Below are positions 32,766-39,058 of a stretch of 39,253 bases of DNA, piece after piece. The translations under genes and the position numbers were made by a program. The first letter of the stretch is position 1. Each line of letters begins with the position of its first letter. The stretch is from Gemmatimonadota bacterium (lineage in GTDB: Bacteria > Gemmatimonadota > Gemmatimonadetes > Gemmatimonadales > GWC2-71-9), in assembly GCA_003221995.1 (NCBI GenBank), contig QHUR01000009.1:1-39253 (forward strand). Direction: 5' to 3'. The notes beneath the pieces were generated by a model. It saw nothing but the letters and a program-made list of their open reading frames with translations, did no database searches and was not told the DNA's origin.

Positions 32766-33151
32766 ACCCGTTCTATCACCGGATCTACAAGGTGGTGCGG
32801 CGAATCCCGCGCGGCCGCGTCGCGACCTACGGCGTGGTGGCCCGCCTGGCCGGGCACCCGGGCGCGGCGCGCACGGTGGGGTGGGCGCTGGCGGCGCTTC
32901 CCGGCGAAGCCGACGTCCCGTGGTGGCGGGTCATCAATGCCGCGGGCCGGATCTCGCTCGGGGGCCGCGATCACGGCGCCGTGCTGCAACGCGCGCTGCT
33001 GCTCCGGGAGGGCGTGAAGTTCGCGCCCGCCGGCGGTGTCGGCCTGACGGCGTTCGGGTGGCCGGCGCAGGCCTACGAGAGCGCCGCGGCGGCCCAAACC
33101 CGTGCCGCCTCGTCCCGCAGGTCCCGCAGGTTGAAGGGCTTGCGCACGTAG
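32762..33151 (+). CDS. MGMT-family alkyltransferase-like (ATL) protein
   Basis: [31 protein letters not shown], with Trp in place of the catalytic Cys. Confidence 0.88.
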
Positions 33152-35190
33152 CGCAGGCCGAGCTGGCCCAGCGCCACCTCCGTCGTCGGGCGCACGTCCC
33201 CCGTGGCGACGAGAATCCGGTCGCGCAGATCGGGACGCGCTTCCATCAGCTCTTCGACAAAGCGCCGCCCCCGGGCGCTCGCCTGGCCGTCGGCGAGGAT
33301 GAGGTCGTACGTGCGGGTCCGCGCGAGGTCGAGGGCCTGCCCCGGATTGCGGGCCACTTCTACGGTGTGCCCCTCCCGGCCGAACAGCGCCTTGATCATG
33401 CGGCGGACGGCCGGATCGTCGTCCACGAGCAGGATCGTGCGCCTGGCGGCGGGCGGCAGAGGGGGCGCTTCCACCTCGGCCGAGTGACGCTGCGGGACAT
33501 CGGCCCCGGCGGGCGGCAGCTCCACGAGGAAGGCTGCTCCGCCCTCCGCGGGCTGCTGGACCGTGATTTGCCCGCCGTGCGCCTCCACGATCGAGTAGGT
33601 GATTGACAGCCCCAGCCCGGTCCCGTGGCCAGGCTCCTTCGTCGTAAAGAACGGCGTGAACAGGTGCGGGAGCACCTCCTCGGGGATCCCGGGGCCCGTG
33701 TCCGCCACCCGCAGCCGCACGCGCTCGTCGAACCACGTGCTGATGCGGATCGTGCGCGGGCGCCCCGCCTCGTTCCCGGCGAGGGCGTGCGCCGCGTTGG
33801 TCACCAGGTTCAGCACCACCTGCTGTAGCGCGTGGCGGTCGCCCACCACGTCCGGCATGCCGGACCCGAGGTTCTTCTCGGTGCGGATGTCCTTAAGCTT
33901 CAGGTCGTAGCTCATGAGCAGCAGGGTGCGCTGGACGACGTCGTTGAGGTTCACGCGGGCCCGCTCGCCGGGGCCCTTGCGCGCGAAGGTCAGGAGGTTC
34001 CGCACGATCCGGCCCGCCCGCTCCGCCTGCTCGTGGATCACCTGCAGGTGGTCCCGGTCCTTGGGTCCCAGCTCCTGCTGCTCGAGCAGGAACTCCGCCA
34101 GCCCGGCGATCGAGGTCAGCGGGTTGTTCAGCTCGTGCGCGACGCCCGACACGAGCTGGCCCACGGCGGCGAGCTTCTCGCTCTGGATGAGCTGCGCCTC
34201 CATCGCCTGCTGGTCGGTGACGTCCTCCACGAGCACGACGAGGCCCCGTCCCGGTCCGGCGCCCCCGATCCGGGCCGCGTTGAGGCGCAGGGTGCGGCGC
34301 AGGCGGTCGGAGCGCGCGACCAGCGCGGCCGCCTGCTCTCCCCGGCGGGCGGCGGCGAGCAGCTCGGTGCTTTCCGTGGCCTGGCCCACGAGCGCAGGGA
34401 GCAGCTCCTCGCCCACGACGGCCGCCACCGGCCGGTCGAGCATCTGCGCGAGCGAGCGGTTGGCGCGCAGCACCCGACCGCCCTCGTCCACCACTGCGAT
34501 CCCCTCGTGCAGCGCGTCGAACGCTGTCTCCCACTGCTCCTTCGCGTGCCGCACCATCTCGAAGAAGCGGGCGTTGGCGAGCGCGACCGCCGCGTGGGTC
34601 CCCACGGTGGAGAGTAGCCTGAGGTCCTCGGGGTTGAACACGCCGCCGCGCGGGTCGGCGATGACGAGCGTTCCCACCACCGCCCCGTGGGCGCGCAGCG
34701 GTACGGCCGCCGCCGACTCGGCATGCACCCCGCTCACCAGCTCCGTGGGTGCGTCCCCGGAGTTGCGGACCAGCTCGAGCCGCTCGCGCCCCAACGAGCG
34801 GGCTACGAGACCGGGATCGTCCCCCCGGATCGACTGCCCCTTGAGCGAACCGAGCGTCCCTTCAGCCGCCGCCACGCGCAGCTGGGGCGTCTGGCCCTCC
34901 TGCTCGATCGTGAGCGCCAGCAGCGCGCCGCGGGCATCGAGGAAGCGGGTGGCGTAGCGCACCACCTGGTCCACGATGCGGTCGAGCTGCAGCGACTCGG
35001 AGAGCACGTAGGCGAGCTCCTGGAGGGAGAAGAGCTCGGACAACCGCCGGTTTAGCTCGTCCGCCGTGCGCCGGCGCTCCCGCTCGCTCTTCGCCACCCG
35101 GCGCCGCAGCGCAGTCGCCCACAACGCGAGCCCCGCCGCGACGAGCAGCGCCGCCGCGGCGATCAGGAAGGGGAGCGGAGTCTGGATCAG
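33073..35190 (-). CDS. Membrane-anchored hybrid histidine kinase (TM-GAF-PAS-HisKA-HATPase-REC)
   Basis: VSGVAHELNNPLTSIAGLAEFLLE H-box; VADTGPGIPEEVLPHLFTPFFTTKEPGHGTGLGLSI; REC RTILLVDDDPAVRRM. The frame upstream of the called TTG (35124) encodes LIQTPLPFLIAAAALLVAAGLAL; likely CTG start at 35190. Confidence 0.88.
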   Translation of the reverse strand: MIQTPLPFLIAAAALLVAAGLALWATALRRRVAKSERERRRTADELNRRLSELFSLQELAYVLSESLQLDRIVDQVVRYATRFLDARGALLALTIEQEGQTPQLRVAAAEGTLGSLKGQSIRGDDPGLVARSLGRERLELVRNSGDAPTELVSGVHAESAAAVPLRAHGAVVGTLVIADPRGGVFNPEDLRLLSTVGTHAAVALANARFFEMVRHAKEQWETAFDALHEGIAVVDEGGRVLRANRSLAQMLDRPVAAVVGEELLPALVGQATESTELLAAARRGEQAAALVARSDRLRRTLRLNAARIGGAGPGRGLVVLVEDVTDQQAMEAQLIQSEKLAAVGQLVSGVAHELNNPLTSIAGLAEFLLEQQELGPKDRDHLQVIHEQAERAGRIVRNLLTFARKGPGERARVNLNDVVQRTLLLMSYDLKLKDIRTEKNLGSGMPDVVGDRHALQQVVLNLVTNAAHALAGNEAGRPRTIRISTWFDERVRLRVADTGPGIPEEVLPHLFTPFFTTKEPGHGTGLGLSITYSIVEAHGGQITVQQPAEGGAAFLVELPPAGADVPQRHSAEVEAPPLPPAARRTILLVDDDPAVRRMIKALFGREGHTVEVARNPGQALDLARTRTYDLILADGQASARGRRFVEELMEARPDLRDRILVATGDVRPTTEVALGQLGLRYVRKPFNLRDLRDEAARVWAAAALS

Positions 35191-35228
35191 TGGTGTCGCC
35201 TCCTCGGCCTAAACATGCTATGGATCGC

Positions 35229-35257
35229 TTGACCGTCCTAATCCCGATAAATATATT
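35229..35257 (+). promoter_or_regulatory. Near-consensus housekeeping-sigma promoter for the porin/FMN/ApbE operon
   Basis: TTGACC (35229-35234), 17-nt spacer, TATATT (35252-35257). Confidence 0.7.
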
Positions 35258-35266
35258 CGCCTATCG

Positions 35267-35317
35267 CAGGCTGAAAACCATTCTCACCTCATGGCCGCAA
35301 GCTGCCATTTCAGCCTG
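35267..35317 (+). promoter_or_regulatory. Structured 5' leader (nested hairpin) upstream of the porin gene
   Basis: CAGGCTGAAA (35267-35276) pairs with TTTCAGCCTG (35308-35317), 10 bp perfect; inner ATGGC/GCCAT stem. Confidence 0.6.
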
Positions 35318-35350
35318 AGCCGCTGATTCCCCGACTGAGCCGGAGGTTGC

Positions 35351-36484
35351 GTGTCCCGAGCGCTCGCGCCCGGTGCCCTGGTAGCCGTTCTTGCGTCCAT
35401 CGCCACCGTGCCTCCCGGTGGGGCGGCGGCGCAGGAGCGAACCACCGTCGGTGGCTACGGCGAGGTGCACTACGTCAATCGCACGGGGCCGGACACCCCG
35501 GGCACGGTCGATCTCAAGCGCTTCGTCGTCTACCTGGCCCACACCTTCAACGACCAGATCGCCTTCCGCTCCGAGCTGGAGGTCGAGGACGCCAAGGTGG
35601 AAGGTGCCGAACCCGGCGGTGAGGTGGCGCTGGAACAGGCCTACCTCGACTATCGGTTGTCGGACGCGCTCACGCTGCGCTCCGGTCTCGTCCTCCCGCC
35701 GGTCGGAATCATCAACGAGACGCATGAGCCCCCGACGTTCAATGGGGTCGACCGCCCGGGCTTCGACAACGACGTGATTCCCACCACGTGGCGGGAGATC
35801 GGGGTAGGCGCGGTGGGGCGCGTGCCCGGCGTCGAGGGTTTGAGCTACCGCGTGTATCTCGTGAACGGGCTGCGGTCGGCCGGGTTTTCGGCCGCCACAG
35901 GGATCCGTGAAGGCCGCCAGGAAGGCCGTGAGGCGAGCTTCGCCAACCCGTCCTTCACGGGCCGGCTCGAGTGGGCGAGGCCCGGCCTCAAGCTGAGTGG
36001 CTCGTTCTGGTACGGCGGCACCGCCGCCGCCGACCCCGCGCTCGGGAAGGGCGCGTTCGCCGCCCCGATCACGTTGCTCTCGGCCGACGCCCGCTTCGAC
36101 GTGAGCGCGTTCATGTTCCGCGGAGTGGCGGCGAGCATCTGGGTGAGCGACGCCGCGGCGATCAACACGCGTTACGCCACCGCGGTCGGCAGCCGCATCG
36201 CCGGTGGCTACCTCGAGGCCGCGTACAACCTGCTGCACGCGCTCGCCCCGGCGTCGTCCCAGAAGCTGAACGCGTTCGTGCGGCACGAGCGGTACGACAC
36301 GCAGGCCGCCGTTCCCGCCGGCACAGCCAGGGACGAGACGCTGGCGCGGCGCATCACGACGTTCGGTCTCTCCTACAAGCCGACCTACAACACGGCGTTC
36401 AAAGGCGATTACCAGCTGCTGCGCAACAAGGCCGGGGCAGGCGAAGCCGAAGTCGTGAGTCTCGGCATCGGGTATCAATTCTGA
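35351..36484 (+). CDS. Outer-membrane porin-like beta-barrel protein
   Basis: Signal peptide; VGGYGEVHYVNRTG...DLKRFVVYLAHTFNDQIAFRSELEVEDAKVEG...LEQAYLDYRLSDALTLRSGLVLPPVGIINETHEPPTF; terminal GIGYQF. Confidence 0.82.
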   Translation: MSRALAPGALVAVLASIATVPPGGAAAQERTTVGGYGEVHYVNRTGPDTPGTVDLKRFVVYLAHTFNDQIAFRSELEVEDAKVEGAEPGGEVALEQAYLDYRLSDALTLRSGLVLPPVGIINETHEPPTFNGVDRPGFDNDVIPTTWREIGVGAVGRVPGVEGLSYRVYLVNGLRSAGFSAATGIREGRQEGREASFANPSFTGRLEWARPGLKLSGSFWYGGTAAADPALGKGAFAAPITLLSADARFDVSAFMFRGVAASIWVSDAAAINTRYATAVGSRIAGGYLEAAYNLLHALAPASSQKLNAFVRHERYDTQAAVPAGTARDETLARRITTFGLSYKPTYNTAFKGDYQLLRNKAGAGEAEVVSLGIGYQF

Positions 36485-36485
36485 C

Positions 36486-36989
36486 ATGATCCGAGCGCGC
36501 CGCGCGGCGGTGGTGTGCTGCACGCTTGGGGCACTCGTCGCCACGCCGGGGGCCGCCGCGCAAGCGCCGCCCGCCAAGCTCGCCGCCTCCCTTGCCCGGC
36601 TGTTCGGGCCGCACGCGCGCGTCGACACGCTCCACGTGGACAGCGCCGCGGCGCTCCGGATCTCCACCGGGGACTCGCTGCTCGGCTTCGCCCAGGTGGG
36701 GAACGTCATCGGGAAGGACCAGCCGATCACGTTTCTCGTGGCGATCGACCCCGCGAACCGGCTGAAGGACGTGGACATCCTGGTGTACCGCGAACCCTAC
36801 GGCGGCGAGGTGGCCTACGAGGACTGGCGTAAGCAGTTTCGCGGCAAGCGTGCGGCGGACCCGCTGCAGGTGGGCCGGGACATCCGGAGTATCTCGGGCG
36901 CGACGATCAGCGTTCAGGCCGTCACCGCCGGCGTGCGGCGCGTGCTCGCCGAGCTCACCGCCTGGCACGAGAGCGGGGCGATCCGATGA
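36486..36989 (+). CDS. Secreted FMN-binding domain protein (ApbE-type flavinylation target)
   Basis: Signal peptide MIRARRAAVVCCTLGALVATPGAAAQ; GRDIRSISGATISVQAVT matches the DxxxxxGAT flavinylation-type motif. Confidence 0.82.
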   Translation: MIRARRAAVVCCTLGALVATPGAAAQAPPAKLAASLARLFGPHARVDTLHVDSAAALRISTGDSLLGFAQVGNVIGKDQPITFLVAIDPANRLKDVDILVYREPYGGEVAYEDWRKQFRGKRAADPLQVGRDIRSISGATISVQAVTAGVRRVLAELTAWHESGAIR

Positions 36990-37504
36990 GCGACGCGGTC
37001 TCGCCCCTCGCCTGGAGGGTGGTGCCCGCGGCGCTCCGCACCCTGGCGCGGTGGATCACGATCGTCCAGCTCGTGGGCTACACCACGTCCCTCGTGTACG
37101 TGTGGCATACCACGCGGCTCACGCCGCCGGGCATCGAAGCGCGGTATCGCGGCACGAACCCCGAGGGGGGCACCGCCCCGATGCAGTTCCCGAAATCCTT
37201 CGCCGAGATGCTGACGATCACCCACACGCACCTCCTGAGCATGGCCGTGATCTTCGTCCTCACGGGCCTCGGCGTGGCCCTGTGCGGCTCGCTTCCGGAG
37301 CGGTGGCGGCGGTTCCTCGTCGCCGAGCCGTTCGCGGCGCTGCTCGTCTCGTTCGCCGCGATGTGGCTGATGCGCTACGTCGACCCCCGGTTCGCCTGGC
37401 TGCTCGAGGCGTCGAGCGCCCTCCTCGCGCTGACCTTCTACGTCCAGTCGTATCTCATCCTGCGCGACCTCGCACGTGTGCGGAGGGGGGAGGCGGGGCG
37501 GTGA
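36986..37504 (+). CDS. Integral membrane protein, about 4 TM, with conserved-looking ITHTHLLSM histidines
   Basis: ATGA overlap with FMN-binding gene and GTGA overlap with apbE; hydrophobic helices with internal HTH residues. Confidence 0.7.
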   Translation: MSDAVSPLAWRVVPAALRTLARWITIVQLVGYTTSLVYVWHTTRLTPPGIEARYRGTNPEGGTAPMQFPKSFAEMLTITHTHLLSMAVIFVLTGLGVALCGSLPERWRRFLVAEPFAALLVSFAAMWLMRYVDPRFAWLLEASSALLALTFYVQSYLILRDLARVRRGEAGR

Positions 37505-38511
37505 GGCGCCGCGCGTTTCTCGGCGTCCTGGGGAGTGGCGTCGTGGGGATGTGGGGAAGACTGCCCGCACCGCGGTGCGCTGGCGACCAGTTCGTCGAGC
37601 GCTGGTCCTGGGCGATGGGGCAACCGGTGCACCTGATGGCGTTCGCCCGCTCGCAGGCGGAGGGTCTCGATGCTTGCGCCGCGGCGCTCGCGGAGCTGCG
37701 GCGCGTCGAGGCGCGGCTCACCCTGTTCGACGACGCGAGCGACCTGTGCGAGCTGAACCGCCGCGCGGGGCGCAAGGCCATGCGCGTGGACCAGGACCTA
37801 GGGGCGGTGTTGGCGCTCGCGCAGCGATTCAAAGGCCACACGCGTGGCGCGTTCGACGTCGCCGTCGAGCCGCTGATGCGCGCCTGGGGCTTCCACCGTC
37901 GGCGCGCGCGTGAGCCATCCCCGGCCGAGATCGCGGAGGCGCGGGAGGCCGTGGGGAGCGCCGTCATCGAGCTGGACGGCGACCGGGCGCGGCTTCCCAA
38001 CGCCCACACCCAGCTCGACTTCGGTGGCATCGGCGTGGGGTACGGCATCGCCCGCGCGCTCGCGGTGCTGCGGGCGCGGCGGATCGGGCGCGCCTTCCTG
38101 GACGTGAGCGGGGACTGCGCGGCGATCGGCGCCCCGCCCGGGGAGAAGGGGTGGCTCGTGGAGATCGCCGACCCCGATCGGCCGCGTGGCGTCATCGCGG
38201 CGACGCGGCTATGCGATTCGGCGCTCGCCACCTCCGCCAACAGCGTGGCCGTCGTGCGCTACGGCGCGCTCGTCTGTGGCCACGTGATGAATCCCGCGAC
38301 CGGATGGCCGGCGCACGCCTTGAGGCAGGCGTCCGTGGTGTCGCACGACCCGGTGGCGGCCGACGCGCTCTCGACGGCGATGCTCGTGTCGGGCCGGACG
38401 CCGGCCGGGGCGCTCCAGGTCTACGCGGTGGCGCGGGGCCGCGACCGCGCTACGGATTCGGCCGGCTCTGCGCCCGGGCCACGACACGGGCGCGCTCGCG
38501 CTCCAGCGTGA
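37501..38511 (+). CDS. apbE: FAD:protein FMN transferase with Tat-like signal
   Basis: RRRAFLGVLGSG Tat-like N-terminus; GAFDVAVEPLMRAWGF; LDFGGIGVGYGIARA; FLDVSGDCAAIG; SANSVAVV; HVMNPATGWPA. Confidence 0.9.
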   Translation: MRRRAFLGVLGSGVVGMWGRLPAPRCAGDQFVERWSWAMGQPVHLMAFARSQAEGLDACAAALAELRRVEARLTLFDDASDLCELNRRAGRKAMRVDQDLGAVLALAQRFKGHTRGAFDVAVEPLMRAWGFHRRRAREPSPAEIAEAREAVGSAVIELDGDRARLPNAHTQLDFGGIGVGYGIARALAVLRARRIGRAFLDVSGDCAAIGAPPGEKGWLVEIADPDRPRGVIAATRLCDSALATSANSVAVVRYGALVCGHVMNPATGWPAHALRQASVVSHDPVAADALSTAMLVSGRTPAGALQVYAVARGRDRATDSAGSAPGPRHGRARAPA

Positions 38512-39058
38512 GAATCGAGCGCGACCAGGAGTCGTTCGCGAGCCCCTGGTAGCTGACCGTCAGCGTCTCGCGGAAGCTGATCCCCTCCTCGAACAGGTAG
38601 ATCGCGACGGCCTGCTCGCGGGCGTCGAGCTGGTAGGAGGCCCATTTCGGCGACAGCGGCACGATCCCGACGGGCCGGAACAGCCGCCCCCGGCTCGTGA
38701 TGTTCACGTCCTCCGGCACGAAGCGCGCCTGCTGCACGAGGCCGAAGAAGCTCACCATGGCGAGGACCGGCCGCAGCACGCCGGCGCGCCGCGCCAGGTC
38801 GTCGATCTCGCCTCGCTTCGAGCGCAGCAGGTCCTGCAGCGACCGGTACGTGTCAGGGGCGAGGAGCCGTGTCACGCTCTGCTCGAGAGGGAGGAACTGG
38901 ATCTCCAGCTCCGGGGTGTCGAAGCGCACGACGATGTCGTCGCGCTTGAGCGTACCGAAGCCGACCGGCAATGAGTCTTGGGCGGATAGGCGGATGGTCG
39001 GACCGACGGCCAGGAGCACCGCCGCGAGCACTTGTGGAGCGTGGCGTCGTAGCGTCAT
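38450..39058 (-). CDS. Secreted hypothetical protein
   Basis: Signal peptide VLAAVLLAVGPTIRLSAQ; ORF coupled to the upstream GTPase gene by overlap. Confidence 0.65.
   Translation of the reverse strand: MTLRRHAPQVLAAVLLAVGPTIRLSAQDSLPVGFGTLKRDDIVVRFDTPELEIQFLPLEQSVTRLLAPDTYRSLQDLLRSKRGEIDDLARRAGVLRPVLAMVSFFGLVQQARFVPEDVNITSRGRLFRPVGIVPLSPKWASYQLDAREQAVAIYLFEEGISFRETLTVSYQGLANDSWSRSILTLERERARVVARAQSRPNP

Follow-up and report, generated by a model that had tools for sequence, protein, structure and literature searches.

A conserved porin, FMN_bind protein, four-helix membrane protein and ApbE operon as a candidate periplasmic flavin-based electron-transfer module of Gemmatimonadota

A four-gene operon at positions 35351-38511 of the window (the whole stretch of 39,253 nucleotides that was analysed) encodes an outer-membrane porin, a secreted FMN_bind protein, an inner-membrane protein with four transmembrane helices (4-TM) and an ApbE FAD:protein FMN transferase, and is read, with the balance of probability modestly in favour, as a periplasmic flavin-based electron-transfer module working by the following scheme as a whole. 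ApbE, predicted to be exported via its Tat-like signal, would use FAD to place an FMN on T140 of the FMN_bind protein. The 4-TM protein, probably a dimer or higher oligomer, would exchange electrons in the inner membrane with the FMN_bind domain and probably also with the quinone pool, at a cofactor or quinol site that would involve H80/H82 and lie at about one third of the membrane depth, counted from the periplasm, and the porin would admit a small oxidant or reductant to the periplasm. Electron transfer by the module is likely but unproven, and we infer its path, cofactor, direction and substrate as well as the role of the porin.

Operon architecture and the flavinylation pair

The initial annotation described a porin/FMN_bind/membrane protein/ApbE operon with the genes coupled by overlaps. 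All four ORFs were present in this order on the plus strand with families or folds supported, and the FMN_bind/4-TM and 4-TM/ApbE junctions are indeed ATGA and GTGA overlaps, but the porin/FMN_bind junction is TGACATG, in which a single spacer base separates stop from start without overlap. The third-position GC content is 0.88-0.95 across all four genes, which are under purifying selection, since dN/dS was about 0.16-0.44 in 11 of 12 pairwise comparisons (the 11 that were computable). None of the genes in the operon encodes a reductase, a cytochrome c or a quinone enzyme. The source is a Gemmatimonadota metagenome-assembled genome (MAG; contig C196), 87.6% complete.

The porin gene (35351..36484, plus strand; 377 aa) starts with GTG behind a GGAGG, and its product carries a Sec signal and 16 beta strands. 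The porin alone gave no Pfam match, and among its orthologues 4/18 matched Porin_O_P (best 1.3e-6) and 4/18 matched BBP2. The AlphaFold model is a 16-strand barrel with Foldseek matches to general porins (best E 2.2e-14, probability 1.00), so the porin assignment of the initial annotation is borne out; barrel and signal peptide, the latter judged by eye, are those of a general 16-strand porin.

The secreted periplasmic FMN_bind protein (36486..36989, plus strand; 167 aa) matches PF04205 with an E-value of 1.6e-9 and 38.7 bits (cut-off 22). Its SGAT, already pointed out in the initial annotation, occupies residues 137-140, agrees with the [S/T]GA[S/T] acceptor motif and is kept in 18/18 orthologues, T140 being the predicted FMN-phosphothreonine site. 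The flavinylation motif has been reported as D-x-x-[S/T]GA[S/T] (PMC12052999), a spacing from which the FMN_bind protein departs, as its Asp stands five residues before the Ser (DIxxISGAT). This Asp, shifted two residues upstream (window 36879-36905, residues 132-140), is conserved throughout the subfamily and recurs in proteobacterial FMN_bind relatives adjoining an ApbE. According to a review, exchange of the motif Asp for Ala has only a minor effect on modification (PMC12052999).

The ApbE gene (37501..38511, plus strand; 336 aa) starts with GTG, and its product matches PF02424 with an E-value of 1.8e-58 and 198.6 bits (gathering score 25.6). The Tat-like signal assigned to it earlier corresponds to an RRxFL N-terminus, and an RRxF[LVI] start is kept in most orthologues as judged by eye. 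S245, H261 and D288 stand at the same spacing as the triad S241-H257-D285 of the V. cholerae enzyme; across 15 aligned sequences H261 and D288 are invariant and S245 is replaced by Ala in two. The conserved domain ends near 38448, and the final ~60 bases of the ORF overlap the end of a gene that runs towards it on the minus strand (38450-39058). The usual ApbE consensus includes the stretch GGIAKGYA. At window 38017-38055 (residues 173-185) the operon ApbE and its close orthologues have GGIGVGYG, with Val for Lys; the remaining ApbEs compared, from Gemmatimonadota and Proteobacteria, have Lys here (GGIAKGYA-like).

ApbE and the FMN_bind protein are very probably enzyme and substrate, since each is the sole match to its Pfam family in the 88%-complete source genome and both lie within the operon. 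RnfG, NqrC or NosR proteins that might compete for ApbE were absent from this genome, within the limits of its 87.6% completeness, which leaves room for a missed copy. Flavinylation of the FMN_bind protein by the ApbE of the operon is thus very likely, as the sequences strongly indicate. In the phylum at large, 223 of 395 genomes have ApbE and 185 have FMN_bind. Among four ApbE/FMN_bind loci inspected outside the operon, two (L119 and L120) are RNF clusters, one (L122:2010-7816) combines an 845-aa FMN_bind fusion protein and ApbE with a heavy-metal P-type ATPase, and one (L123) shows no evident FMN_bind gene next to its ApbE.

The four-helix membrane protein and its HxH motif

The inner-membrane 4-TM protein (36986..37504, plus strand; 172 aa) carries the motif EMLTITHTHLL with H80 and H82. 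Its model (pLDDT 92) consists of four long helices (15-43, 72-98, 105-131 and 136-170) and an additional short helix in the first loop (47-55), and H80 and H82 are present in 45/45 primary 4-TM copies, which upholds the earlier description of a 4-TM protein with an ITHTHLL segment. T79-H80-T81-H82 lies in helix 2, and the N-in/C-in topology suggested by the charge pattern would place it some eight residues deep, as measured from the periplasmic surface.

The protein represents a family without annotation. The window protein had no significant Pfam, NCBIfam or PDB family match, sequence search gave no solved relative of the family, and a Foldseek search of the fold returned nothing significant, the best hits being MAPEG enzymes at E 0.24. 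For prokaryotic cytochrome b561 (PF01292), the window protein gave no match, and two divergent ApbE-type copies scored below the cut-off (3.4e-4 and 1.5e-3; 20.9 and 18.8 bits versus 30.1). Identity with DUF4405/FezC was rejected, as there was no PF14358 match and H80 and H82 are the only conserved histidines, and family scans without any matching Pfam or NCBIfam led to rejection of the RnfG/NqrC (RNF/NQR), NosR, NapH, MsrQ, PepSY and DsbD systems.

The pairing of an inner-membrane protein with a periplasmic flavoprotein is most simply read as making the 4-TM protein an electron donor or acceptor. With only two conserved histidines, two residues apart on the same helix, a bis-His heme within one 4-TM monomer is unlikely; two histidines so spaced on a single helix cannot both ligate one heme, which leaves a metal, a quinol site or a heme held by a dimer. 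For the last of these FezC offers a precedent, its heme sites being predicted where two identical subunits meet (PMC10979944).

Gene order, the sister module and the history of the locus

A profile search for the 4-TM protein in 395 genomes of the phylum gave matches in 40, and the neighbourhoods of the loci were searched with a separate profile for each gene. A strict 4-TM motif pattern applied to one genome per GTDB species returned 12 loci, all from Gemmatimonadetes; the cross-phylum reach of the survey is limited, Gemmatimonadota being the only group searched well. The named contigs encoding close 4-TM relatives all belong to Gemmatimonadetes or Gemmatimonadales MAGs, a congener included, and sequence searches returned no relatives of the family on plasmids.

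Conservation of the gene order, on which the initial annotation had staked its proposal, was found in 19 ApbE-type loci from 19 genomes (type A), arranged as porin, FMN_bind protein with SGAT, 4-TM protein and ApbE, with ApbE absent solely from L102, which lies at a contig end. Several genera share this arrangement at 60-92% identity, and other families at 20-45%. Three type A loci insert a second 4-TM copy between the porin and FMN_bind genes (L023:7117-7581, L101:1939-2418 and L102:1174-1632), and these second copies have lost both HxH histidines; such tandem copies would fit a hetero-oligomer. All 49 4-TM loci (49/49) have an adjacent porin gene and an adjacent FMN_bind or FMN_bind-like gene unless a contig end intervenes, and ApbE accompanies them only where SGAT is present. 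A chance neighbourhood was rejected, as the arrangement is found in 49 loci; the operon is a real unit and is strictly conserved in this group of soil-dwelling bacteria.

The other 30 loci (type B), one of them cut by a contig end, form a sister module in which a BBP2-type porin and a 4-TM protein are followed by an FMN_bind-like protein that lacks SGAT, and from which ApbE is absent. Several genomes carry both types, including the source genome, in which type B lies on contig C128 (L022:10598-12763). The 4-TM proteins of the two types share only 19-28% identity but have Y54, T/S-H-x-H, F116 and W127 in common. The type B FMN_bind-like protein is probably a degenerate FMN_bind, which is likely rather than proven: PF04205 matched 3/26 members (best 0.0038), and hhalign with FMN_bind gave a probability of only 6.7%, the alignment running along the domain. 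Retention of the 4-TM protein without ApbE and SGAT indicates that it is tied to the porin or to the FMN_bind-type protein as its partner and not to flavinylation.

The same loci bear on the idea that the 4-TM protein carries no electrons and instead helps ApbE with assembly or with the supply of flavin. Such a helper would suit the place of the 4-TM gene between the substrate and transferase genes, and FAD does need some route to the periplasm, but the 30 sister modules keep a 4-TM protein beside an SGAT-less FMN_bind-like protein with no ApbE to assist, and this role is judged very improbable.

Immediately upstream of the porin, nearly all sister modules (for instance L022, L021 and L083) encode a small exported protein rich in His and Cys (e.g. 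CRHHAAHH...PCFCGEMTGG), which hints at metal involvement. The main rival to electron transfer is reductive metal handling, in which the porin would admit a metal chelate, the flavinylated protein would reduce Fe or Cu in the periplasm, and the HxH of the 4-TM protein would bind or move the metal. Flavinylation clusters often serve iron uptake (PMC8238504), and the HxH, joined by a third nearby His in 26/27 type B 4-TM copies (HxVDxxLIQDTHVH), resembles a metal site. However, the His/Cys-rich gene is confined to the sister module, the 4-TM protein is small for a transporter, and clustering of the neighbouring genes revealed no conserved metal transporter, TonB receptor or metal regulator adjoining the operon, leaving metal handling rather unlikely.

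The divergent neighbour of the operon (33073-35124, minus strand) is a GAF/PAS hybrid histidine kinase. In the relatives L113, L114 and L118, which lack the operon, the kinase gene and a small secreted-protein gene, which border the operon in the window (33073-39058), stand 75-141 bases apart within the same tig-clpX-engB block. Because the flanking genes stand together in such relatives, the operon is a presence/absence cassette, gained or lost whole at a fixed site in many genera. A part for the FMN protein and porin in envelope stress or redox sensing linked to this kinase was considered, given that by cluster count as many as 16 ApbE-type loci have a member of the kinase family beside the operon. 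The kinase occupies the same block in genomes without the operon, so its position does not depend on the operon; regulation by the kinase is weakened as a candidate, and a sensing role has little probability.

Significance and comparison with known systems

Extended to both module types, the electron-transfer reading leads to a broader and more tentative proposal, which is possible though held with less than even confidence: the 4-TM HxH proteins may be a new class of inner-membrane electron carriers that serve flavinylated and non-flavinylated FMN_bind-type proteins, always alongside a porin dedicated to them, providing Gemmatimonadota with a route from quinone to periplasm. Flavinylation surveys contain many apbE clusters without a recognised membrane electron carrier, for which the 4-TM protein is a conserved, unannotated candidate, bringing a precise two-histidine motif and a dedicated pair of one enzyme and one substrate. 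The porin is added as a constant part of the unit, and the sister module without flavinylation offers a natural contrast that makes it possible to test what covalent FMN does and what the membrane protein does.

Clusters that combine flavinylation with a membrane electron carrier are an established type (PMC8238504, PMC10979944), and the 4-TM protein matches none of the membrane systems that were linked to flavinylation in the descriptions of 2021 and 2024. Similar to the NapH-like, MsrQ-like, PepSY, DsbD and NQR/RNF-like systems (PMC8238504), the operon clusters ApbE, a secreted flavinylated domain and a membrane protein; different from them, its 4-TM protein falls outside their Pfam families, a porin belongs to the unit, and NAD-binding, Fe-S and thioredoxin parts are absent from it. 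DUF4405/FezC (PMC10979944) is likewise a small membrane protein beside apbE, with heme sites predicted at the homodimer interface, but it has six helices and four central histidines for heme B, as against four helices and an HxH pair of conserved histidines in the window protein. RnfG/NqrC share an FMN_bind domain with SGAT that is flavinylated by ApbE, whereas the window FMN_bind protein is soluble and falls far short of the cut-offs for RnfG and NqrC.

A parallel is found on five proteobacterial replicons (L104-L108, from Methylocystis, Ideonella, Bradyrhizobium, Novosphingobium and Sphingomonas), which encode an outer-membrane barrel, an FMN_bind protein, ApbE and a small membrane protein, hence the same four kinds of component as the window operon in a different order, with the membrane protein last. 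Neither version was found described in the literature that could be searched. The proteobacterial FMN_bind proteins are 32-41% identical to that of the window across the alignment, and the nearest plasmid relatives reach at most 50% where they match best. Of the five barrels, those of L105 and L108 are of another type, DUF6662. The proteobacterial small membrane protein has four invariant histidines, as in a di-heme cytochrome b, and profile comparison detected no homology between it and the window 4-TM family. The same kit therefore seems, as far as these profiles tell, to have been put together with two different membrane parts.
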